From positions 1-56,231 of the forward strand of contig JAKLIH010000001.1 in assembly GCA_022709715.1 (NCBI GenBank): a DNA stretch of 56,231 bases, written 5' to 3'. Positions 34,816 through 56,231 of the stretch are shown here, piece by piece. Position 1 is the stretch's first letter. The number at the start of each line of letters is the position of its first letter. The notes under the pieces were generated by a model. That model searched no databases. It was given only the letters and a program-made list of their open reading frames with translations, and was not told the DNA's origin. The position numbers and the translations under genes were made by a program. Origin of the DNA: Patescibacteria group bacterium. Lineage in GTDB: Bacteria; Patescibacteriota; Minisyncoccia; UBA6257; JAKLIH01.

Positions 34816-34896
34816 TGGCGGTAGCGGGAGAGTGCAGGCCTCTTCCAATTTTGCTTTTAAGAGCAACGTTTTTCCTAGCATTTAAACTACGCTACC
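34816..34896 (-). tRNA. tRNA-like gene, apparent UAA anticodon, aberrant T-arm
   Basis: The acceptor stem GGTAGCG/CGCTACC is perfect and followed by an encoded GCCA. The anticodon stem TTGCT/AGCAA encloses a six-base loop CTTAAA, which would place UAA (Leu) after U33. The T-loop position reads GCCTGCA in place of TTCRANY, and no GG is seen in a canonical D-loop. It may be a degenerate tRNA-Leu or a tRNA-like RNA. Encoded CCA distinguishes this cluster from the other tRNAs of the window. Confidence 0.5.
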
Positions 34897-34920
34897 ATAT
34901 AATAATAAAGAACAAATTTT

Positions 34921-34994
34921 TGGAGGTGATGGGCGGACTTAAACCGCCAACCTTCTATTTTTAAAAAATAGTGCTCTGATTGAGCTACATCACC
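34921..34994 (-). tRNA. tRNA-like gene with UUA anticodon
   Basis: Acceptor GGTGATG/CATCACC, discriminator T, encoded CCA. D-arm GCTC/GAGC with a five-base loop AATCA. Anticodon stem CTATT/AATAG with loop TTTTAAA, giving UUA, which pairs with the stop codon UAA. T-stem GGCGG/CCGCC with loop TTTAAGT. It shares much sequence with the Cys-like gene next to it, so the two are duplicates that diverged mainly in the anticodon. Function is unknown. Confidence 0.5.
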
Positions 34995-35024
34995 ATTTCT
35001 AAGTGATAATAAAGAACAAATTTT

Positions 35025-35099
35025 TGGAGATGACGGGCGGAGTTTTACCGCCAACATCTATTCTGCAGAATAGTGCTCTAAGCGTTGAGCTACGTCATC
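35025..35099 (-). tRNA. tRNA-Cys-like gene (GCA) with six-base anticodon loop
   Basis: Acceptor GATGACG/CGTCATC, discriminator T (as tRNA-Cys requires), encoded CCA. Anticodon stem CTATT/AATAG encloses CTGCAG, one base short, with GCA after U33. The T-loop is TAAAACT and the D-loop AACGCTTA, so the usual D-loop/T-loop contacts cannot form. The cysS gene lies at 42-43 kb. It could be a functional but divergent tRNA-Cys. Confidence 0.55.
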
Positions 35100-39521: not shown

Positions 39522-42329
39522 TTAATTATCGGAAAATTCAATTTCAATATCGGCATCGTTTTCTTCGGCGGTTTCAACCGTGGCCACATATTCACTGTTG
39601 GTATCGGGTGGAGTGAAAGAACTGTAATCAAGATTTTCATCTGGTTCAGCATTGTTATAAGCATTGGTATTGGCTAAATTGCGAAAACTAGCTTGTTTGT
39701 CTTCAAAATAAAGTTTGATACTACCGGTAGCACCATTACGATGTTTAGCAATAATCACTTCGGCGATATTGGTATTTTCAGTGGTTTTACGATAACGATC
39801 TTCGCGGTAAAGTAGCATGACTACGTCCGAATCTTGCTCAATTGAATTATGAATAATAATATCATTGGCTAAAAAGTTATGCGTGTCTTGTATTGTAGCG
39901 TCATAAACATCTTCATTTCCTAATTTATTGATATTAACAATTTCATCTCAATATATATCAGAATTGATTAGATTATTAATTTCGTGATTATTAAGATATG
40001 TAAGCCGACTTAATCTTTCTCTACTCAGGCCAGATTTAAAAAGAGTACTTCCACAATAAGCGGTATTCATTGATCTTGAAATATCTCTTCATGATATTCC
40101 TGCATATTCTTTGGCTGGAGTAATAATATAACTTCATATTTCTCTTGGAATGATATCGAGGTTTGGATTTGATTTTAAATTATTTAAGATCGTAAGTGCT
40201 CTAGGTATAATACTGCCTCGTTTTCCATAACAACCAATGTTTGTCAAAAAATTAATTTGATTATTTTTGCCTTGTATTACTAAATGATAACAGATTCGAT
40301 AATTATTTTTTTTATTTTCTCGTATTTGAGTTTGAATACCAAAACGTAGCATTAAATGTTGCAATTGTTCTATTAATATATAACTAGTAGAAGCGTAATA
40401 TATTGATATGTTGTTTTTTGATATAGAGATATTACCATCGGTAGCAAAGAGATGTTTAATAAATAATGATATTTGATCATTGGATAATGAGAAAATTATT
40501 TCCGGAATTATTTTATCATAAGAATGCACTGGTTGTATATTTAATTCCTTAAATCAATTAGTAATAGGATGTTTTTTGTTGTGAGTTAAATGATAAGGTG
40601 ATGGTAAATAAGCGTGGAATCAATTTTTTTGTTGGACAATTCTCGGCTCAATATCAAATAATTTTTTAGTGCATTGGTTTACAATGTTAATATTTTCTGT
40701 ATCGGCACTGGTATAATGAATTGGTTGATTGGGCAAAACACAGCCATCGCCTAATAAATGAGCCAGTAATATTAATTCTTCTTTTTTTATAGTATTTATA
40801 TAATTAGTTGTTATTTGTCTAGGAATTGCTATTTTGTCACCAACTTTTAATTTATCAAGTGCGTATCAATCATCCAATTTTTTAAAAGGGTGATTGCTTG
40901 AAGCTTTTATTTTTCTGCCACTTCTAAGGACTAATTCGTATATTTGCTTTTTTCCACTATAAAAAGCTTTTATCAAAGGTTTTTTAGTAATATTATAATT
41001 ATCATCCATGGTATATACCATAATTGGATCTTGTTTCTCTCTTTCAGCTAATGTTTTTATAGTTGTAAACTTGCCACTATTTATATCAAATATTTTTGTA
41101 TCTCCAGTTACACATCCAGTTTCACGTAAATCAGAAAGTTTGGGCACTGGTGGAATTCGTTGTTCAACGCTTCGAGATAATTGAGATAAAGCTAGAACTG
41201 GTACGTTTAATTCTCTAGCGATGATTTTTATAGCTTTTGAAATTTCGGTATATTGTTGGACTGGATTATTAAAATTAGAAGTAGAGCCAATTAATTGTAA
41301 ATAATCAATAATAATTAAATCTAATCCATGTTCAGCCATTAACCTTCTGGCTTTGGTGCGGATTTGAAGAGCCGTAAGACCAGGAGTATCATCGATATAT
41401 ATTTTAGCTTCGGATAATCTGGCTAAAGCGTCATGAAGCAAGGCATAATCATTTAATTCACCATGAGATGATAACATACCGGTGCGAATTTTTCAGAGAT
41501 CAACATTGGCTTCAGCCGCAATAAAACGATCAACTAATTGATCGGCGGACATTTCCAAGCTAAAAATAGCTACTTTATTGCCATTTAAAGCAGTTTGGCG
41601 GGCAATATCCAAAGCTAAAGATGATTTACCAATGGATGGTCTAGCACCCAAAACAATCATATCGGATTTTTGTAACCCACCTAATAAATTATCAAGTTGA
41701 GTAAAGCCAGTAGTAATACCACGAAGGCGTCCACCATTTTTTTGAAGCATATCAATTCTTTCAAAAGCATCAACTAAACCAGTTTTAATATCTACAAAAT
41801 TTTTTTCAATTTTCTTTTTAGCAATTTGAAAAATTAATTGTTCAGCTTGGTCAAGCACAACATCAACATCATCAGTTTCATTCAGACCTAAACGACCAAT
41901 TTCATAAGAAGCAGCGATTAGGTCACGCAAAATTCTTTTGCGATGAACAATTTGAGCATACTCTTCACAATTGTAACTAGCGGGAGCTTTATTAATGAGT
42001 GTAGCTAAGTAACTGGCTCCACCAATTTCATTTATTTGATCTTTTTCTTTAAGACGATTGCTGATAGTCATGACATCGATAGGTTTACCCTTTTCAAATT
42101 GTTCGATGATTGTGCTATAAATAATTTTATTTTCATGACGATAAAAATCATCAGCTAATAAAATATCAGCGACGCGAGTGATAGCGTTTTTATCAAGCAA
42201 AAGTGTTCCTAATAATGTTTCTTCTAATTCAAGATTTTGAGGTGGTAACTTCCCTTCATTTTCTAAAGTTTTGAATAAACCACTGTAGTCAGTTTCGTTT
42301 TTTGATTTGCGATTATATTTATCGGCCAT
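39522..42329 (-). CDS. dnaB: Replicative DNA helicase DnaB with an intein
   Basis: A 935-aa precursor; without the intein 512 aa, normal for DnaB. The N-terminal domain has QNLELEETLLGTLLLDK. The RecA domain has GARPSIGKSSLALDIARQ (Walker A), FSLEMSADQLVDR, DLIIIDYLQLI (Walker B), LSQLSRSVEQR, and after the intein SIEQDSDVVMLLYRED and IIAKHRNGATG. It unwinds DNA at the fork. An acidic, Asn-rich tail of about 70 residues closes it. Several Trp are UGA. Confidence 0.95.
39846..41114 (-). other. Intein with LAGLIDADG homing endonuclease in DnaB
   Basis: 423 residues inserted between LSDLRETG and SIEQDSDVV. It starts with Cys (CVTGDTKIF, block A), has ASSNHPFKKL (block B with His), the two endonuclease motifs LLAHLLGDGCV and LFIKHLFATDGNI, and ends VYDATIQDTHNFLAND...IHN before Ser (blocks F and G). 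All splicing residues (Cys1, block B His, penultimate His, terminal Asn, Ser+1) are present. It contains UGA Trp codons, for example in DDWYAL and REIWSY. The site equals that of the Synechocystis DnaB intein. Confidence 0.93.
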
Positions 42330-45220: not shown

Positions 45221-47449
45221 CTATCTTTGACGTTCAAGATCACTCTTGGCGGTTTTTTCGACACAAGCAATTGGATACTGAAAATTACAAGGAATCGATC
45301 CTTGATTTTGATCATATTTAACACTAGGCGGGTTAGTAGAGTTGTTAATACTAACTGCTGCCCCTGGTGAAAATATACGATTAGCTCCTTCTTTGCTGCT
45401 GGCGGAAGAAAAATTATCACAATTGGCTAAAGATAAAAGTTTGTCGCTGCCAGGAAAAGAGAACCATTGGCTGTATCAAAAAGATTCATAATAATTATTT
45501 TCAATATTGCTGATATCGCGAGCATTTTGTTTTAAACTATCATATCATTGATTAGACACACCGCTTATTTTTATGTTAGGTAAAGCGCAAAACTGAGATG
45601 CCTTAGCTTGGCCAGCTACCGAGTAAGACGAAGCAAAAAATCGTCAATGAGCACCATCGCAAAAAAAGCCTTTATAACTTAAACCAAGAGTTTTGGTAGT
45701 GTTATCGGCCACAGAATTATCAGTGTAAATTTTTGGTAAACGATAAATATATCCTCCATTGCCTAAATCGTCAAGTTTTAATAAAGCTTCGAATTCACCA
45801 TTATAACCCAGTTTTTTGGCATGAGTATCGCAAATTTTATTAGGACCAAGGCGTTGAAAATCGCCCTTATACAATTGATCGGTTAAAAAAATGATTTTAT
45901 ATTTTGGATTATCTTCAACGGTAACGATGCAATCATAATGAAAATTTATTTGTTGGGTGTTTGTATTTTTTGTATAAATATTACTATATTGATATTTCCC
46001 TGCTTTATTGAAAGCAAAAAACTTTTGACCTCACAATCCATAGGGCTGCTCGTTGGGGGCGTTGGTTGTTATAAAATCATAATTATGTTCTCAAAGCAAA
46101 TTTTTATAATAATCATTAAACTCAAAAGCGCTAATATCTTCTTGGCTTTGTTCACTACTTAATTTTCAATTTTTATTATTGTAGTTAAAAATGATCGATG
46201 GTGCTCAAAATATACTTTCTTTTTGACGATTATAGGCTGAGGTAATAAAAACTGGTTCATTGGTAAAGGGAGCGTGAGGATACACTAAACAAGGAACATT
46301 TATATTAACAACTTCAATTGGTTTGGTTTGGGTAGCACAATAAGTTAAACATTCGCTTTCGTTATCAAACAATTTATGATTATTTTCTTGATAAGTAGTG
46401 GAAATTGAATTTTTAGAGTCATAAATATAAATATTATTTATTTTGCTACTCGTAGTTTTTTTATCAGAGCTCGAGTAACTGTAATTAAACGAAATGTTAT
46501 TCACATAATGCAATGCGCTATTTGAACTATTAGTTAATTGAAAACAGGCTGGTTGGTTATAAATACGACGATCAATAAAGAAGTTTTGTCAGCAAATGTA
46601 TTTGTTAGTTGTTTTTGATTGGGGGATAGAAATGTTAGTAATAGAAAAACCAAATTCCTTTAAAACATCTTTATAGGAAGCATCGGCCTGAAATAATGTG
46701 AGTGGCGGAGGTGGATTAGCATAAATATTATCAAAGGGCTGGATGTATAGATTTGAAAAATTGACATTTTTTGAATTCAAAAAACTAGCTAAACAAAGAT
46801 AATCTGATTTTTTACAATTAATATTTCATAAATCTTTTTTATAACCCAATGAATTAGTTAATTGATAAGTTTGAAGTCCAGAAATATTAACAGGATTATT
46901 TTGTGGAGTGTCATTGTTATTTTTTGTGGTTGTTAAGTCAATATCGTTTGAGCTATCATGAGCAGATATATTTGTGTTTTGAATAGTAGTATCATAACAA
47001 CCATTTAATTCGTTTATTTTATTTAAAGTTAATTCGCCAACATAACCAGTTGGTTTTAATAAGCCAATGGGTTCTAAAATTTTATTCTTATATTTTAATT
47101 GAAATCTCATTACTGCTTGTTTAGTCAAATTTCCGAAATAGCCAGTTACTAATTTTTCGGGATAAATATTTGAAAGTGAAGATAAAAATTCCTGAAGTTT
47201 TTTTACTTCATTGTTTTTGTTACCAAATTCTAAATATGCTGAGAAACAATTCTCGCTTTTTATTAAATCGTTATTATCATAATTGTCAACAACTATATTG
47301 TTGGTTGGTGCGATTGTATCTGATTGATAAATATCTTGGTTATTTAATCGTCTATCAATAGTTTCTAATAAATCATCAAAAAAACTGGCTAATGTGATAG
47401 CTGGTAAAATAATAAATAATATAGAAAAGAATATAATTTTTTTTGTCAT
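45221..47449 (-). CDS. Secreted protein: peptidoglycan-binding domain plus DUF1554-like domain
   Basis: A 742-aa protein, surface protein A of the cluster. A signal peptide (KIIFFSILFIILPAITLA) precedes FFDDLLETIDRRLN. One peptidoglycan-binding type 1 domain (about 68-150) contains NIYPEKLVTGYFGNLTKQAV. The middle has a four-Cys element (SECLTYC). The C-terminal 230 residues (FLTDQLYKGDFQRLGPNKICDTHAKKLG... with KEGANRIFSP and IPCNFQYPIACVE) resemble the lectin-like DUF1554. About ten UGA Trp codons occur. The N-terminal third is a clear paralogue of the protein encoded at 52195-53475. It probably sits on the cell wall. Confidence 0.72.
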
Positions 47450-47483
47450 ATAATAGTTTAATTGTTCTTAATAAAAAATCAAA

Positions 47484-48830
47484 TTATGGATTAATTTGAT
47501 TTGAAGAATAGCGACATTGATAATCTTCTATAATTTCGGAATCTAATCATGGAGCACAGTTTTGTTTGCAGATTTCAAAAGAATCTTCAAGAGTTGTGGC
47601 TTGAAATTCGGCATTGGTTTTAGTTAAAACACATCTACCTTCTTTATAATTACAATTTCAACCACTATAGTTTTGGTATGTTTCTAATGGACTTTGATAG
47701 CAAGCTTCAAAACAATTACTATAATTTTCGAATTCTCCAGTTGGGCTTGCATAACATTCTTTTGGTTCGATAACAACAGGTTTGTCATTAACATAAACTA
47801 TAAAATTTAGACCAGCTAAATATCCAGATCAATATCCATTTCACGATCCGTAATTAGGAAACAAATCATAATCAGTACTAGTCTTTTTTTGACAAGAATA
47901 GCGTATTTTGGTGTTTGTTGGATCTGATATTCCAGCTTTAGAACCACATTTTATTCAAGACAAATAATATTCATTCTTATCATTCTCATTAACGGCATAT
48001 TGTTCGGCAATTCCTTTTTCTATTTGAGCTCAATCAATAACTTTATTAATTAAATCTTCTTTATAGGCTTTTTGTTTTAAATATTGGTTTATGGCTTCAG
48101 TGTTGATTTTAAACATGCCATTTTGAGGATCAATGATTAAAAGATTTGATGGTATATTTACTTTTATTTGTTCAATATTATTCATTTGCTCCTCTGAAAT
48201 ATTATTGCTACTCATTCATCCTTCTTTTACATGTTTTGTATAAGCTGCTTTATTCCATTTTTGTTTTGGATCGGCCCATAAGCATTCTTTAGAATCTGCT
48301 TTAAAAGTATAAGTATCAGAAATTGGTCGGCATTTTTGACTGCATTCTTCAATAGTCATATTATAAATACCATTAATTCCAGTATTGGAGTCGCCATTTT
48401 GATAACGGCCTAATATTAATTTGTGATTTATTTGTGGTTCACAAACGCCATATAATAGATTACAAGAATATAAAACTTTTTTATAACAATCTTTTCAACA
48501 AGCATCATTGCTGTTGTAAGTTCCCCGCGAATCTCTTACACATTGGCCAGCGGCACTATTACAATATCACTTGAATCTTAAATCGGGGCAAACTTTTAAG
48601 CAATCTTTTTCACTTGTATATTCGGCGTTAGTTTTATCAACGATACATAATCCTGAATAACGATCGCAGGCGTATCCTATCGGCGAGTTATTAATATCAG
48701 CAGAGAGGTCGTTTAAAAAAATATTATTTTTATTTGAAAAACTCTTAACAATTAAAAATATAATTGCTATTGAAAATATTATATAAATAATTTTTCTACA
48801 ATTCTTCGTCTTCATTAGCTTGTTGTTCAT
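47484..48830 (-). CDS. Membrane-anchored Cys-rich surface protein
   Basis: A 448-aa protein with an N-terminal membrane anchor (KIIYIIFSIAIIFLIVKSF) and no peptidoglycan-binding domain. It carries several copies of a four-cysteine element, for example ACDRYSGLCIVDKTNAEYTS ending in DCLKVC, CNSAAGQCVRDSRGTYNSND ending in CWKDC, and CNYKEGRCVLTKTNAEFQ ending in ICKQNC. The spacing C-x6-C-x(10-14)-C-x3-C suggests small disulfide-bonded modules. Its start overlaps the preceding gene by 35 bp, implying translational coupling. The family is unknown to me. Confidence 0.68.
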
Positions 48831-51800
48831 CACAATTAAATTTAAATATTAAGGAATTGTTGCTTTCATTTGATTCTTCAATATTATCTTCGGGATCAAC
48901 AATACAACCGATATAAGTATCAGAATGAATTTTTGGAAGTGTTCTTCCAGTTTCATCTAAAATATCAGTTTTGCGACAATCGAATTCGGATGTTAAAGTA
49001 ACTGTTTCACCAGCGTCTAGTTTTATAAATATTGGATCGTATGGCCAAACGAAGTGATCAAAATTACCTATTCTTTCTCCAACCGGTAAATGTGGGTAAT
49101 TGTTGGGAGTTTTTAGCATTTCTTGTATTTGGCGGCTAGAAAAACTTTTTGTTAATTCATCATCAATACGATTACAAACTACTCTTATTGTGTCACCATT
49201 GTCAGTAAACCTTTGTTTTCTTACGTTTTCGCCGCCAATATTTCTGACTTCAATTGAAACTTGACGCTTTTTTGATTGAGTATAATATTTAATATTGCCT
49301 AATTTAAAATTGCTAATGGTTAAATCAGGATAAAATTCTTTTTTACGTTTGTTGGAAATGGTTGGCTCTGGTTTGATTGGTTCTTCAATACAAAGAGTAC
49401 GACTAAATTGACTAACACTTAATCTTACCCCATCGCCGCTAAATATATTACCAATTTTATAATCTTGGCTTCTTCAACCCGATGATCACGGTGAATTGTT
49501 GGGTTGATGATCTTGATAACCGAAAACAACTTGTACAGCGGTATCATAATTACTACATTGGGTTTTGTCTATGTTAGGATTGGCTCAAGCTACCAAATAA
49601 TTACTGCAACCAAAAGGTTGATAATACTCGCTGCCAAGATCTAATCCCTCACGTCTGGTAACTGGTTTATTGATAGTTAAATAATCTTTATTATCTAAAT
49701 CACTGATTGGTGATGTGATTAATTTATCATATTTTTTGTTAGCAATTATCGGCACGCTGAGAAACCGTTCTCAAGATGGTGGTTTGGAATCAGGTTGTAT
49801 ACCATTGCGCCACAAATCCCCACCTACTTGATTATTTTTAACAAATAGATGATATCAATCAAAAGAAATAAATCCACCATCTAAATCACGATAAGGATAA
49901 ATAGATAATTGAGGAACAACGTTTTTAAATATTGTAGCTTGGGAAGTAAAATATTTTAATTCCTTCGTAGATGGTTCGACTAAATAAAAATTTTTAGGAC
50001 AATTAATTTTTGATTTGGTAGGAGTGTCATAAGTTAAAAACATTCGCATGTATTGACCAGGTGTTGGGAAATCAACTACTTTAATATTACAGGTAGCCTT
50101 ACCTATTAAATGAGATACATTGGTTTGCTCGTTAGTAGCATAAAGATTATAATCAAAACTATAGTTGCCAGCTTTTTCAAAAGATGTATATTTTAAATAT
50201 TCAGATTTGCTAGTTGGTAGATAAAAATCTTGGGGGATATCATAATAATTATTTTTAGGTTTTACACTTACGTCGGAATCGTTAACAATACTTTGTGATT
50301 TTGAACAATCTTTACGACAATACATAAAGCTTCGAGTATCGCTTTCTTTGGTGCTACATTTGCCATCACCACAATAGATTGGAGGAATAAATTTAAGAAC
50401 ATCGAGATATCTGTTTATTTTTGCTTCCCCATAAAGAACATAGCAAGCTGATTGAGTTTCAGTACTATAGGGTTTATTGTTTTTGTCCAATAGATTATAA
50501 TAATTATCATACTTACCATAAGAAAAATCTTTATTAGACCAAGAAGTTGATCAAGAACTGCTTAGTTTAAACCCAGGCGTAATGTTGGCTAATCGATTTT
50601 CATTATTATCAAATTGGTATCTAACTCACCATGGCATATTGACAATCGTTATTTTGACGGGATCATTTCTAACAATTTCAAATGGCAGTATTTCACAATC
50701 AAGCTGTAAAGGATTTTTAATTAAAGCATCAACTTCGGATTGAGAGATTTTGTTGAGTGATTCAGTCGAACTAGCAATCAATGGTTTAGAAGCAGATTTA
50801 CAGGCTTCAGCGCATTGGTTTTGAGTGGTATAAACATTTTTGTTGGTTAAACGATTATAAACAGAAGCGTCAACTTCGCCGGATTCTAAGTAAGAACATT
50901 GTTTTTGGCTGGTTAAACCACAAACTCAACCAGCTTTACTGTTGATCGATTGTTTATAGGCAATTTTATTAGTATCGCCATCTTTGGCATCACAAAAATT
51001 ACTACATTCTTCTTTTGTATCATAAATCATAGTATAATCCTGCAAACTATAAGTAGTTTTATTTTTTGTGTATTCATTACCGTCGTTTCAGATATAAATT
51101 AATTTATTTTCTATATCTTTACTTTTTGTAATATATTGACACCAGGATGGAAGTGATGGATGGGTTTCACAAAGCCAACCATTTTGTCAATTTTTCTTAG
51201 TATATAAATATTTGTCATAAACGGATGTGGTTTTAATAGTTACTTGATTTTCGGTTAATTCAATGTCGTTTTCATTATCAAACGAAAAATTATCTCAATC
51301 GACAGTATTATCATTACTCGCGGACTGACCACCAATATTTACTTTACAATTGGAAGTTGAAATTAAACCTTTGTTATCGATCACTTTTAAATTGACAGTA
51401 TAAATGCCAGTTTTAGAAAATTTAACTTGAAAAGTTTTACTATTGTTATCGCTATCGTTATTTCAGATATATTTATAGGGTGAAGATCCACCTAGTATTT
51501 GAGAAATGAATAAAACATTTTGATTGGTATTGGCTTGTGACGGCACAGCTAAACAAAGAGTTTGAAATATAGAAGTGGTATTGGTGGAAGCACTGGCGAC
51601 CGTTGGGACGTCGCTGTTTTTTAGATTAGCAAAAAAATTGCAAAAAGCTTCTTGGGTTTCGGCATCAGTTTGACCGGTTTGGGAGATATTTAAAGATTTT
51701 TGTAAACGTTTTACCGCGTTTTCAGTTTTAGCACCAAAATAGCCAGTTACCAATTTTTCGGGATAAACGCTAGGTATTAATCTTAGAAAAGATTGTAGCA

Positions 51801-52164
51801 ATTTAATATCAAGGGCTGGTGATTCGTCACCTTTTTTAAGAAAAGATTGAAATGGACATCAAGCATATTGATCACAAATTAACTTGGTAGTTTCAGTATC
51901 AACAATACCATCGGGTTTCAAGCCATTAATTTCTTTAAAGCGATTGATAGCGGTTTTGGTTAAATTACCATAGTAACCAGTAATCGGACCAGTGTAAAGA
52001 TTATTAATATATAAAATGGATTGAAGGCGGATGATATTGGCTTTATCGTTGTTAGTTTGAGAACTAATTGATAAATTTTTAAAATTTAAAGGACATTCAG
52101 CTTTAGCGATAGCCGGCACAATACAAATACTAATTAAAATGAAAAGTTTGATTATTTTGTTCAT
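48796..52164 (-). CDS. Large secreted protein: two peptidoglycan-binding domains, PKD-like and CARDB-like parts
   Basis: A 1122-aa protein, the largest of the window. Signal peptide MNKIIKLFILISICIVPAIA, then a first peptidoglycan-binding domain (YTGPITGYYGNLTKTAINRF), a second (YPEKLVTGYFGAKTENAVKR), a PKD-like segment (TGIYTVNLKVIDNKG), Cys-rich four-Cys elements (ECSNFC, QCAEAC), a CGDGKC region and, near the C-terminus, a CARDB-like beta domain (YPDLTISNFKLG, NIEESNESNNSLIF). Many UGA Trp codons split it in the standard code. It is a paralogue of the protein encoded at 53507-55582. Likely role: wall-bound surface structure. Confidence 0.75.
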
Positions 52165-52194
52165 TAAACTTTTTAATTTTTAATAAATAATGGT

Positions 52195-53475
52195 TTAAAA
52201 AGTATTTTCAGGAACAACTAATGGGCAATAAATTCAAAAATAATTACTAGCCGTAGGCGGATTATAAATGTAATTTTGGAATCTTTCATCATTCATATCG
52301 GGTAAATCTCAAACACTAGCTTTTACTTGAGTTTCATTGTATTTTGATTCGGTATAACCATAGCATTTAGCTATATAACCAGATCAATAAGGAGTATTTT
52401 GACCACTGCTTCAGAATATTTCTGAATATGGCTCTCACTTTATATGTTCTGGCTTTAAATCTTTATGAAAAATTGTATATTGAAACACACCAAGTTTAGG
52501 AATTTCTGGTTTGCATTGATAGCATAGGGTTCGTATTTTTTTGGTAAAGGATTTTTGTTCATCGTTTTGCGATCAATAAACTATAACATCAACTTCCCTT
52601 TCATTGGTTTGGCATTGATAATCAAAAGCAATACTTTTTACATTTTTTCTATAATCTTCATCTTGACAAGCGTTGATATCACCAACGTTTACTGTTTGAC
52701 CGTTGATATTGATGGTAATATTGGTGGCATCTTCGTAGCTTGAGTTTACAAAGCTAAATATCATTTTTCTAATATCAGTTTTTTCTGGGGTTGAATCCAT
52801 TGAAGCTGAATTAATTCATAATGAACTAACGTTTGAACAATGAGTTTTGATTTTAACAGTCGGCAAGGTTGAATCAGTAGTTGGTGGATTGTTATCGATA
52901 AGATTATCGGAATTGTCATCAGGTGTTGGCGTTGGTTCTAAAATTTCATCTTCAGTTTGAGCATCAATATTTATTTCTAGATCGGAATTAGAATCATCAA
53001 TTATATTATTATTTTGATCAGTATCAAGACATTCATTTAAACTATTTAATTTATTTAAAGTATACTTGCCAACATAGCCAGTGCCATATTTTAATCCAGC
53101 TGGGGCTAACACTTCACTTTTAAATTTATTTTGGAAACGAATAACCGCTTGTTTGGTTAAGTTTCCAAAATAGCCAGTCACCAATTTTTCAGGATAAATA
53201 TCGGAGAATTGTGATAATAATTTTTGGAGTTCGGATACATCATTGTTACGATCACCAAATTCGAGTTCATTTATAAAACAAAACCCAGATGGATTAAAAG
53301 TGGCATTAACAGTTTGGTCGGTGTTATCAATTTCGTTAGTGGGGTTATTGTTTAGATTGGTATTGTTAATAAGATTTCTAATTCGTGATAATAAATCATC
53401 AAAAAAACTTGCCATAGCGATACGCGGGGCTATTAATAAAATAATTAATAAAATAAATAATATTTTTTTAGGCAT
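52195..53475 (-). CDS. Secreted peptidoglycan-binding protein
   Basis: A 426-aa protein: signal peptide (KKILFILLIILLIAPRIAMA), FFDDLLSRIRNLIN, one peptidoglycan-binding domain (SDIYPEKLVTGYFGNLTKQA), an acidic Pro/Thr/Asp-rich linker (about 160-205) and a C-terminal beta domain of about 200 residues with paired Cys (CYQC). The N-terminal 150 residues closely match the protein encoded at 45221-47449; the C-terminal domain does not. It lies 31 bp after the preceding surface gene, in the same direction. Confidence 0.75.
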
Positions 53476-53506
53476 AGTTTAAATGATTATTTTTTAGTCA
53501 AGATAA

Positions 53507-55582
53507 TTAATAATCGCTTTTACCACATTGAGATTTGCAATCGTCGGCTGAATCATATCAACAAGTTTGATCGGTTTTAACTTGGGCATTAGTGCAAGGT
53601 ATGCATTGAGATCCAAAAGCACATTTATATTTGCCAGATAAAGCGTTATCATGTAGTTCCTGAGCTTTCTTTAAAATTGGAGCTAAAGGATTAAATGGAG
53701 TTTGAGGAGTTGATTCTTGAGGTTCAAAATCTTGGGGTGTATCGGATTTTTCAGTTTTTCTTTGGATCTCTGGTTTGGCTTGTTCAGCTCAACAATAATC
53801 TAAACAATTTCAATAGCTATCAAATTGGCATCATTCTTTTGGATCGCAAGGTACACAACCTTCGGTGTTTGAACATTTATGACGAGTATAAGTATATATT
53901 ATATTGTTGGAGGATGATTGTTGAGTGGTTGTTTTGTTTTGATTGCTAGATGTGTCTGTGTTGTTTGAAGCATTGGTATTATTTTGGTTTTGCAATTGTT
54001 CAGCATAATTTAATTTACTTTGATATTCGGTTGGTGAGTATTTTATATATTTAATGTTACCATCGGGCATTAATTTTAAATTTCTCATTGTAGCTGGTTC
54101 ACTCGAAAGTGATTTAGGACTAAAATTACCAAGTAATGTTTGTTTTGAATAATAAGGATGACAGGATTTAAAATCATCTCAAGTTAAATCAAAATTGATA
54201 TAATCGGAATCGCTAAGCTTTTGTTTTCGATATTTTCATTCGGCATCTATATAAATGCGGTTAGGGTCAAAATAACTGCCAATATGGTTGCAATCAGGGT
54301 AATAAAAAGGTCCTTGGTAGTAATAACAGGGTTGATTGTTAGAATCTTTAAGAATATAACTGCCATGAACACATTGGCCAGTATACATATTATAATAGTG
54401 AGTTTTATAATAATTATAAGTATTGGAATCGGGATGGAACCCTTTTTGAGCGTAAGTTTTATATTTTGATTGATCGTCTTTGGCTATTGTCATGGCTTCG
54501 TCATAGGAAAAACAAGAATAGTCGCCAATTAATTTAGCTGTAAGGTTTATGGTTAATGGGTATTTTTGAGCATTTAAACTGGTAAAGTTATTCCAATTTT
54601 TGCTAATATATTTTTCAACATCAGTTGGTTCTTGGTAAGTGGAATTTTGATCAGTTGAATCATCTTGATCATTTTCACCGGGGTCAACATCAATTGGTAA
54701 ATCAATATCGTCGTCAGAATCATCAATGTCATCAGTACTACTTCCTATTTTAACGCTGCAATTAGTTGTAAGTATTTCACCTTTTGAATCGATAACTTTT
54801 AAATTAACAGTTTTAGCCCCAGAACTCGTAAAAGAAATTTCAAAAGTTTTTTGATTGTTGGTAGCTTTATTATTTCAAATATATTTAAATGGTGAGTTTT
54901 GATTACCAATAATTTGAGATATAAAAGTAACAGTTTCGTTTATATCGGCTTGTTTGGTAGATGCCACACAAACAACTTTGGATATGGGCGAAGTGTTGTC
55001 TTGATTATCTTTGGAGTCAGTATCGGTGATACCAAAATTAGCAAAAAAATTACAAAAAGTTTCTCGGGTAGATTCATCGATTTTACCAGTTTGAGAAATG
55101 TTTAAAGATTTTTGTAAACGTTTGACGGCATTTTCAGTTTTAGTTCCAAAATAGCCAGTTACTAATTTTTCTGGATAAATGTTGGGTATTAATTTTAAAA
55201 AGTATTGAATAAATTTAATTTCTTTTTTGGGCGATTCACTACCATTTTGGAGAAAAGATTGAAATGGACAAAGCGTATAATTATCACATAAAATATTAAC
55301 GGTACTGTTGTCAACTACCCCGTTAGCTGATAAATTGTAACTTTTTTTGAATTTATTGATGGCGGTTTTGGTTAAGTTGCCATAGTAGCCAGTGATAGGA
55401 CCATCATAAAGATTATTAATATATAAAATGGATTGAAGACGAATAATGTTGGGAATGTCATCAGGTATTTGAGTATCAATTGAAAGATTATCGATAGATT
55501 CTAAAGGACAAGCCGCTTGTAAGTAACCGGCCGATAGAAATAAAGATAAAATTGTAAAAATAATGATTTTTTTAATAAACAT
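53507..55582 (-). CDS. Secreted protein: two peptidoglycan-binding domains, PKD-like domain, Cys-rich tail
   Basis: A 691-aa protein. Signal peptide KKIIIFTILSLFLSAGYLQA, two peptidoglycan-binding domains (YDGPITGYYGNLTKTAINKF and YPEKLVTGYFGTKTENAVKR), a PKD-like segment (SGAKTVNLKVIDSKGEIL), an acidic linker, a Tyr-rich middle and a tail with four-Cys elements (CSNTEGCVPC ... NCLDYC; CAFGSQCIPC ... DCKSQC). The first 300 residues are strongly similar to those of the 1122-aa protein. Trp are largely UGA. It follows a small membrane-protein gene by one base. Confidence 0.75.
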
Positions 55583-55583
55583 T

Positions 55584-55910
55584 TTAAATATTATTTAAAA
55601 AGATTTGTAATGATCAGACAAAACAAAATCCAGAAATAATAAAATTAGCAATTAATACGAAATTGTATAATGACTCAAAATTAATTTTCAATTGTTTAGC
55701 AAAATAAATATTAAGTCCAAAAATGAATCATATCACAGCCAAAATATATAAAAGATTATATTTATTACCAACAAAATCGCCAAAATTGTAAATGAAATGC
55801 AAAATTAAAGGTGTTAAATGACTATTTTGGAAAAATAAAAACAATAATAAAAAAGTAGTGATAAAATTTATAACGATGGATAATTTTGTAAATATGGAAT
55901 AATTTTTCAT
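55584..55910 (-). CDS. Small membrane protein, first gene of the surface cluster
   Basis: A 108-aa protein with three predicted membrane helices (VINFITTFLLLFLFF; LLYILAVIWFIFGLNIYF; YNFVLIANFIISGFCFVW). Two Trp are UGA. No family is recognised. It lies one base before the 691-aa secreted protein and probably leads the operon of six genes. Confidence 0.65.
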
Positions 55911-55984: not shown

Positions 55985-56005
55985 CCTGCCTACCGGCAGG
56001 CAGGC
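55985..56005. repeat. CCTGCC/GGCAGG palindromic repeat
   Basis: CCTGCCTACCGGCAGGCAGG, third copy of the family, here directly followed by CCCACAC and the first unit of the 150-bp direct repeat. Confidence 0.75.
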
Positions 56006-56231
56006 CCACACTCAGAAAAGTTTCTGAGCGGCCATCAATCTTTTAAGGATAAACATTCTATTCAAAGCACAAGTTGTAAAATAAACTTCATCGTTCCTCA
56101 GTTAAAAATAGAATTTTTAACCTTAAACTTTCTGGATAAAGTGGAGGCTTGGCCCCCACACTCAGAAAAGTTTCTGAGCGGCCATCAATCTTTTAAGGAT
56201 AAACATTCTATTCAAAGCACAAGTTGTAAAA
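56005..56231. repeat. 77-bp direct repeat, 150-bp period, with hairpin
   Basis: Bases 56005-56081 and 56155-56231 are identical (77 of 77). Each starts CCCACACTCAGAAAAGTTTC; CTCAGAAA-AG-TTTCTGAG forms an 8-bp hairpin. Between them lie 73 bp with a second hairpin GTTAAAAAT-AGA-ATTTTTAAC-like. The second copy runs into the window end, so the array may continue. No coding frame is seen. Confidence 0.9.

Follow-up and report, generated by a model that had tools for sequence, protein, structure and literature searches.

The window analyzed here, the whole 56,231-nucleotide stretch taken from contig JAKLIH010000001.1, belongs to a Patescibacteria genome (G000) and was compared with two genomes of the same genus (G001 and G002) and one from a sister genus of the same family (G003). 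With TGA read as sense, the minus strand between 45221 and 55910 carries six ORFs of 108, 691, 426, 1122, ~447, and 742 aa, and the five larger of these, referred to in gene order as A2, B1, C2, D, and E1, have the sizes, order, and positions proposed in the first-pass annotation. The run is opened by a small protein of 108 aa (55584..55910) that appears from its sequence to be a multi-pass membrane protein and has no match in a Pfam search; in both G001 and G002 a relative of this gene adjoins the two-domain gene, and next to the peptidoglycan-binding gene of G003 there is a similar small membrane protein gene. The gene packing is operon-like, with a single base between the membrane protein gene and A2, 31 between A2 and B1, 30 between B1 and C2, and 34 between D and E1, and with the start of D overlapping the end of C2. 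Another 67 bases lead to a ribosomal protein L21 gene (44842..45153, minus strand; identified from sequence), a downstream border that is kept in four of four family members. Scans of the locus for promoter-like and terminator-like sequences gave counts near the shuffled expectation. We also note a tandemly repeated stretch (CACACTCAGAAAAGTTTCTGAGCGGCCATC...) just upstream of the module, extending from 55990-56231 onward into L049 (1-456).

Four of the five larger genes code for PG_binding_1 domains (PF01471), with two copies in A2 and C2 and one in B1 and E1 (Pfam E values of 1e-22 to 9e-9; 78.9, 35.8, 80.5, and 36.6 bits for A2, B1, C2, and E1, against a cut-off of 23), and in all four the sequence, read by eye, starts with a hydrophobic leader that closes in an A-x-A-like motif or something similar. 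In A2 (53507..55582, minus strand) the leader and the two PG_binding_1 domains (55289-55453 and 55061-55219, spanning 55061..55453) are followed by a PKD-like region and a tail of its own ending in two four-cysteine repeats, the C-terminal one at 53522..53629. The gene coding for B1 (52195..53475, minus strand) is simpler, with a leader, one PG_binding_1 domain (53119-53250), and its own tail. C2 (48796..52164, minus strand) has a leader, two PG_binding_1 domains (51880-52041 and 51646-51810, spanning 51646..52041), a PKD domain at residues 211-270 (51355..51534; Pfam E value of 6e-5 and 23.5 bits, at the cut-off), a Cys region, and a long tail whose end includes a weak CARDB-like stretch below cut-off. 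A2 aligns to C2 across the PKD region and lacks a Pfam PKD match of its own. E1 (45221..47449, minus strand) has a leader, a single PG_binding_1 domain (47090-47215), and a long tail that it has in common with a paralogue on contig C20.

D (47484..48833, minus strand; 449 aa from a GTG start or 447 aa from the ATG at 48827) differs in kind, with an N-terminal hydrophobic helix, 24 Cys residues, no PG_binding_1 domain found by Pfam, and no significant Pfam match of any other sort. It is built from four to five copies of a four-cysteine repeat with the pattern C-x(4-6)-[G]-x-C ... C-x3-C, including two neighboring copies at 48585-48674 and 48483-48566 (spanning 48483..48674) and a C-terminal one at 47553..47657. 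Pieces related to this repeat are present in C2 and E1 in addition to the copies at the A2 end, and copies are also found in G003 and five other members of the order; a comparison with the PDB gave no meaningful match. Cys makes up 3.0% of the five gene products together and 1.0% of the remainder of the window. The description of the entire group as Cys-rich is apt for D (5.4%) and less so for the two-domain pair (3.3% in A2 and 2.7% in C2), and the one-domain pair B1 and E1 has 2.1 to 2.2%. About 6 kb upstream of the module, another gene encodes an 871-aa protein that looks secreted and contains Cys repeats like those of D (L049 5778-8393, minus strand; about 61.8 to 64.4 kb on G000 contig C1), and this has a relative on a G002 contig (C9) and no Pfam match.

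Genetic code of the locus

The locus genes contain 45 in-frame TGA codons, and ORF calling with code 11 yields pieces no longer than 235 aa in the region. In the neighboring CysS gene, TGA sits at conserved Trp positions, within FALWK, PGWH, and YWVH, which we take to be the conserved Trp motifs of this enzyme. In orthologue alignments of the compared genes, TGA lies opposite TGG 20 times and opposite Gly codons twice. A tRNA with a UCA anticodon and a tRNA-Trp-like body is present (labeled tRNA-SeC by ARAGORN), and a search for RF2 gave nothing above cut-off, the best match being at a prfA-like gene on contig C20. Because of the CysS Trp sites, the TGG alignments, the UCA tRNA, and the lack of an RF2 above cut-off, we conclude that TGA codes for Trp and not Gly; the first three of these also rule out code 25, in which UGA is Gly. 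All five genes are under purifying selection, with pN well below pS in comparisons with orthologues, for which synonymous sites are near saturation; together with the in-frame TGA codons, this marks the ORFs as real coding sequence.

Reading of UGA as Trp was reported in 2026 for a Patescibacteriota family, JAKLIH01 in the order UBA6257, on the basis of four genomes with a UCA tRNA and no RF2 (PMC13092985), and the family compared here likewise comprises four genomes. From its code, phylum, and number of family members, the window probably belongs to JAKLIH01. Default code 11 annotation fragments the genes of this lineage, and the first-pass statement that standard-code pipelines would miss the genes holds for code 11 calling, but the family is published and its genes are callable with code 4 (PMC13092985). 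Elsewhere in the window, three tRNA-like genes with encoded CCA lie in a row (34819-35099, minus strand); the anticodon of one (34921-34994, minus strand) is UUA, which would pair with UAA, a stop codon, and the anticodon loop of a second is odd.

Paralogy and duplication history

The two-domain proteins A2 and C2 share 53% identity over 332 aa (E value of 1e-100) and the one-domain proteins B1 and E1 share 45% over 212 aa (E value of 1e-40). Among the ten PG-binding proteins of G000 compared, A2 and C2 are reciprocal best matches (323 bits compared with 129 to 151 for the next), and the best match of B1 is E1 (143 bits compared with 95 for the C20 copy). E1 itself scores almost equally to B1 (134 bits) and to the C20 copy (138 bits), and a tree of the one-domain group has no clear branching. 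This third one-domain paralogue (L054 10558-12576, plus strand, on G000 contig C20) is a 672-aa protein with an E1-like tail encoded between prfA-like and rpsB-like genes, and a further two-domain paralogue is at a separate locus on contig C12.

These dispersed paralogues bear on whether a module was copied at all, as the two-domain and one-domain pairs could have duplicated separately, their alternating order being incidental. The near-equal scores of E1 to B1 and to the C20 copy, the separate C20 and C12 loci, and the lack of a D-like gene after A2 are all compatible with such events, but A2 and C2 score 323 bits to each other against 129 to 151 for the next paralogue, B1 scores 143 to E1 against 95 to the C20 copy, and both pairs have the same order and strand and are colinear in G002. 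We consider separate duplications unlikely.

In G002 the locus is split over three contigs as A2, B1-C2-D, and D'-E1, in the same order as in G000, and with the same borders, a small membrane gene before and L21, CorA, CysS, and DnaB after E1. D occurs in G002 in two versions, together with the beginning of a second one-domain gene, and these are 81% identical in DNA (the second copy is at L057 3-158, minus strand, and L065 3-1130). Close to the end of contig C24, the copy there is interrupted by an in-frame stop, which would indicate a pseudogene, a sequencing error, or a strain variant. The second D could represent one more tandem duplication or a difference between strains, as the contig ends fit either, and the split locus may reflect two strains mixed in the assembly. 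G001 has a single continuous contig with the small membrane gene, a C2-type gene, D, and L21; A2, B1, and E1 are absent from the G001 locus, which has just one module. G003 has a single PG-binding gene at this place, for a PKD-like protein of 427 aa with two domains, which together with a small membrane gene is close to L21-CorA-CysS-DnaB. A search for the module in related genomes, as had been suggested, thus recovered it colinear in G002 and in a single-module version in G001, and neither unrelated N termini nor scattered, non-colinear homologues in relatives, either of which would contradict the first-pass proposal of a duplicated module, were seen.

The C-terminal parts are as different as first described, with no match between the tails of the paralogues within the locus. 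Orthologous tails of G000 and G002 are 61% (A2), 60% (B1), 50 to 55% (C2), and 60% (E1) identical, and the tails of E1 and the C20 protein are homologous (30% identity over 404 aa). The C2 tail is in none of 383 other genomes sampled from the class, G000 being the sole match in that sample, and a comparison with 100 relatives placed the E1 tail in the genus only, whereas the PG-binding domains are widespread. Between G000 and G002, pN is 0.18 to 0.35 for the locus genes and 0.05 to 0.13 for CorA and CysS. Structure prediction of the tails, proposed at the outset, gave AlphaFold2 models of the E1 and C2 tails that are too poor to use (three-sequence alignments; mean pLDDT of 40 and 37), because there are too few homologues; only the first ~135 residues of the E1 tail model are Ig-like in look. 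Two candidate relationships were considered. For the C2 and E1 tails, the sole sign of common origin is a faint, local similarity of Ig-like character (hhalign probability of 4%, P value of 0.01; BLAST E value of 0.001 to 0.01 in a small set). Domains of the DUF1554 type are lectin-like, and a DUF1554 tail is not supported, with no Pfam match up to an E value of 10 and no support from a PDB sequence search; the suspected part has a pLDDT of about 20 to 35, and a PDB fold search gave nothing below an E value of 0.26.

Because A2 groups with A2 (100/99) and C2 with C2 (83/83) across G000 and G002 in the N-terminal tree, the duplication predates the split of these two species, and a tandem event with tail change is well supported. 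The first-pass proposal of a tandem module duplication with swapped C termini is supported, as regards duplication with changed C termini, by the same-order paralogue pairs, the colinearity of G002, the single module of G001, and the unmatched tails, but this is not a clean module repeat, as D follows the second copy only. A one-domain paralogue sharing the E1 tail is also on C20. G001 has the C2 tail as well, and the C20 copy has that of E1, for which reason the downstream set (C2 and E1) looks ancestral. The upstream copies, A2 and B1, probably carry changed tails, and B1 is most likely the changed member of its pair, since the C20 paralogue shares its tail with E1.

The G001 two-domain gene, with a C2 tail and a D neighbor, is a mosaic in that its diagnostic N-terminal sites match A2 at 14 of 15 positions within residues 80-183 and mostly C2 in the flanks (block test, P = 0.0009, for a block chosen after seeing the pattern; runs test, P = 0.04), and in the N-terminal tree it joins A2 (94/94). 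Given this post hoc choice of the block, we take the mosaic as no more than suggestive; it could reflect recombination between paralogues in an ancestor of G001 with both copies, or rate differences between regions. This matters for the possibility, which we take seriously while rating it below probable, that G001 shows the unduplicated ancestral state and that the G000/G002 lineage alone gained the second module, the other course being an older duplication followed by loss and gene conversion in G001. Its contig is unbroken from the small membrane gene via C2 and D to L21, and G003 also has a single PG-binding gene there; against this, the A2-like block suggests that both copies were once present, and the tree placement with A2 agrees, an effect that rate differences could mimic.

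Possible roles of the encoded proteins

This is a real duplicated locus. Its products are probably surface proteins anchored on the wall, which belong to a generally known kind but have tails specific to the lineage. We are moderately confident in viewing it as a closely packed run of modular proteins in which a stem-plus-tail unit was tandemly duplicated before the G000/G002 split, the upstream tails then changing, and in which the tails serve for contact, either to a different cell or to the outer layer of the cell that bears them. A Sec leader would export each PG_binding_1 protein, and the combination of leader and PG_binding_1 suggests anchoring on the cell's own wall, the N-terminal domain or domains presumably holding the protein on peptidoglycan, with PKD/Ig-like spacers and partly Cys-rich tails predicted to point outward. 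D, a membrane-anchored protein of four-cysteine repeats, could act as a companion. Gene order and orthology show the timing of the tandem event, and the upstream tails, for which no match was seen, would have been replaced or have diverged past recognition, with the direction of change presumed from the shared downstream tails. These fast, lineage-restricted tails most likely contact another cell or the outer layer of their own, and a role in contacting host or prey is plausible by analogy. Growth of such a row by duplication is a normal route to surface variety. The picture may need qualifying for the presence of D in the second copy only, the third one-domain copy elsewhere, and the possible loss and mosaic gene in G001.

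PG_binding_1 also occurs in enzymes whose target is the wall and which do not display anything, and the proteins could instead give the cell's own envelope its shape or maintain it (as wall-bound scaffold, in outer-layer linkage, or in wall remodeling), unrelated to other cells, with duplication raising dose and variety. The domain is common in both wall enzymes and structural wall proteins, G000 has about ten such proteins, the PG-binding stem profile matches in 67 of 101 order-level genomes, and the locus adjoins the housekeeping genes L21, CorA, CysS, and DnaB. However, none of the five proteins has a catalytic domain in Pfam or one above cut-off in NCBIfam, although the tails have no recognized fold. 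The tails are also confined to the genus and change more quickly than CorA or CysS, behavior seldom seen in core components of the envelope; we consider an envelope role a less likely alternative. The same point separates the locus from many named PF01471 proteins, which it resembles in having the domain well above the Pfam cut-off in four of five genes, but which carry wall hydrolase domains of a kind not found here.

Surface proteins described in other Patescibacteria offer an analogy for a contact role. Genes for proteins with PGBD, Ig-like, or PKD domains rank near the top in expression among those of unknown function in methanogen-attached Paceibacteria ("Candidatus Yanofskyibacterium," "Candidatus Microsyncoccus," and "Candidatus Minisyncoccus"), where they are extracellular and proposed for host attachment (PMC10936435). 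The likeness is one of description, and in the available portion of that report they are individual highly expressed genes, with a duplicated locus with four-cysteine repeats not described. Vampirococcus lugosii, a predatory member of the phylum, has large surface proteins with PKD and adhesion-type domains that are proposed for attachment, although these are giant and membrane-located, and the organism is of another class in which UGA codes for glycine (PMC8080830).

Patescibacteria generally depend on other cells, yet few of the proteins by which partners are chosen have been identified; constant anchors with tails that change between related species are concrete candidates to test. Going further, constant wall-gripping stems, exchangeable tails, and recombining tandem paralogues might together form a diversity generator by which related epibiont species come to differ in their partner cells. 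Swapping of segments between paralogues enters this idea because the G001 mosaic suggests recombination, and we think the idea as a whole improbable.

Among the bordering housekeeping genes, DnaB (39522-42329, minus strand) contains an intein, in which Pfam matches both a LAGLIDADG domain and splicing domains. The long DnaB of G001 (941 aa) aligns with it over the full length, and the 515-aa form in G002 and the 615-aa form in G003 skip most of the intein-bearing segment.
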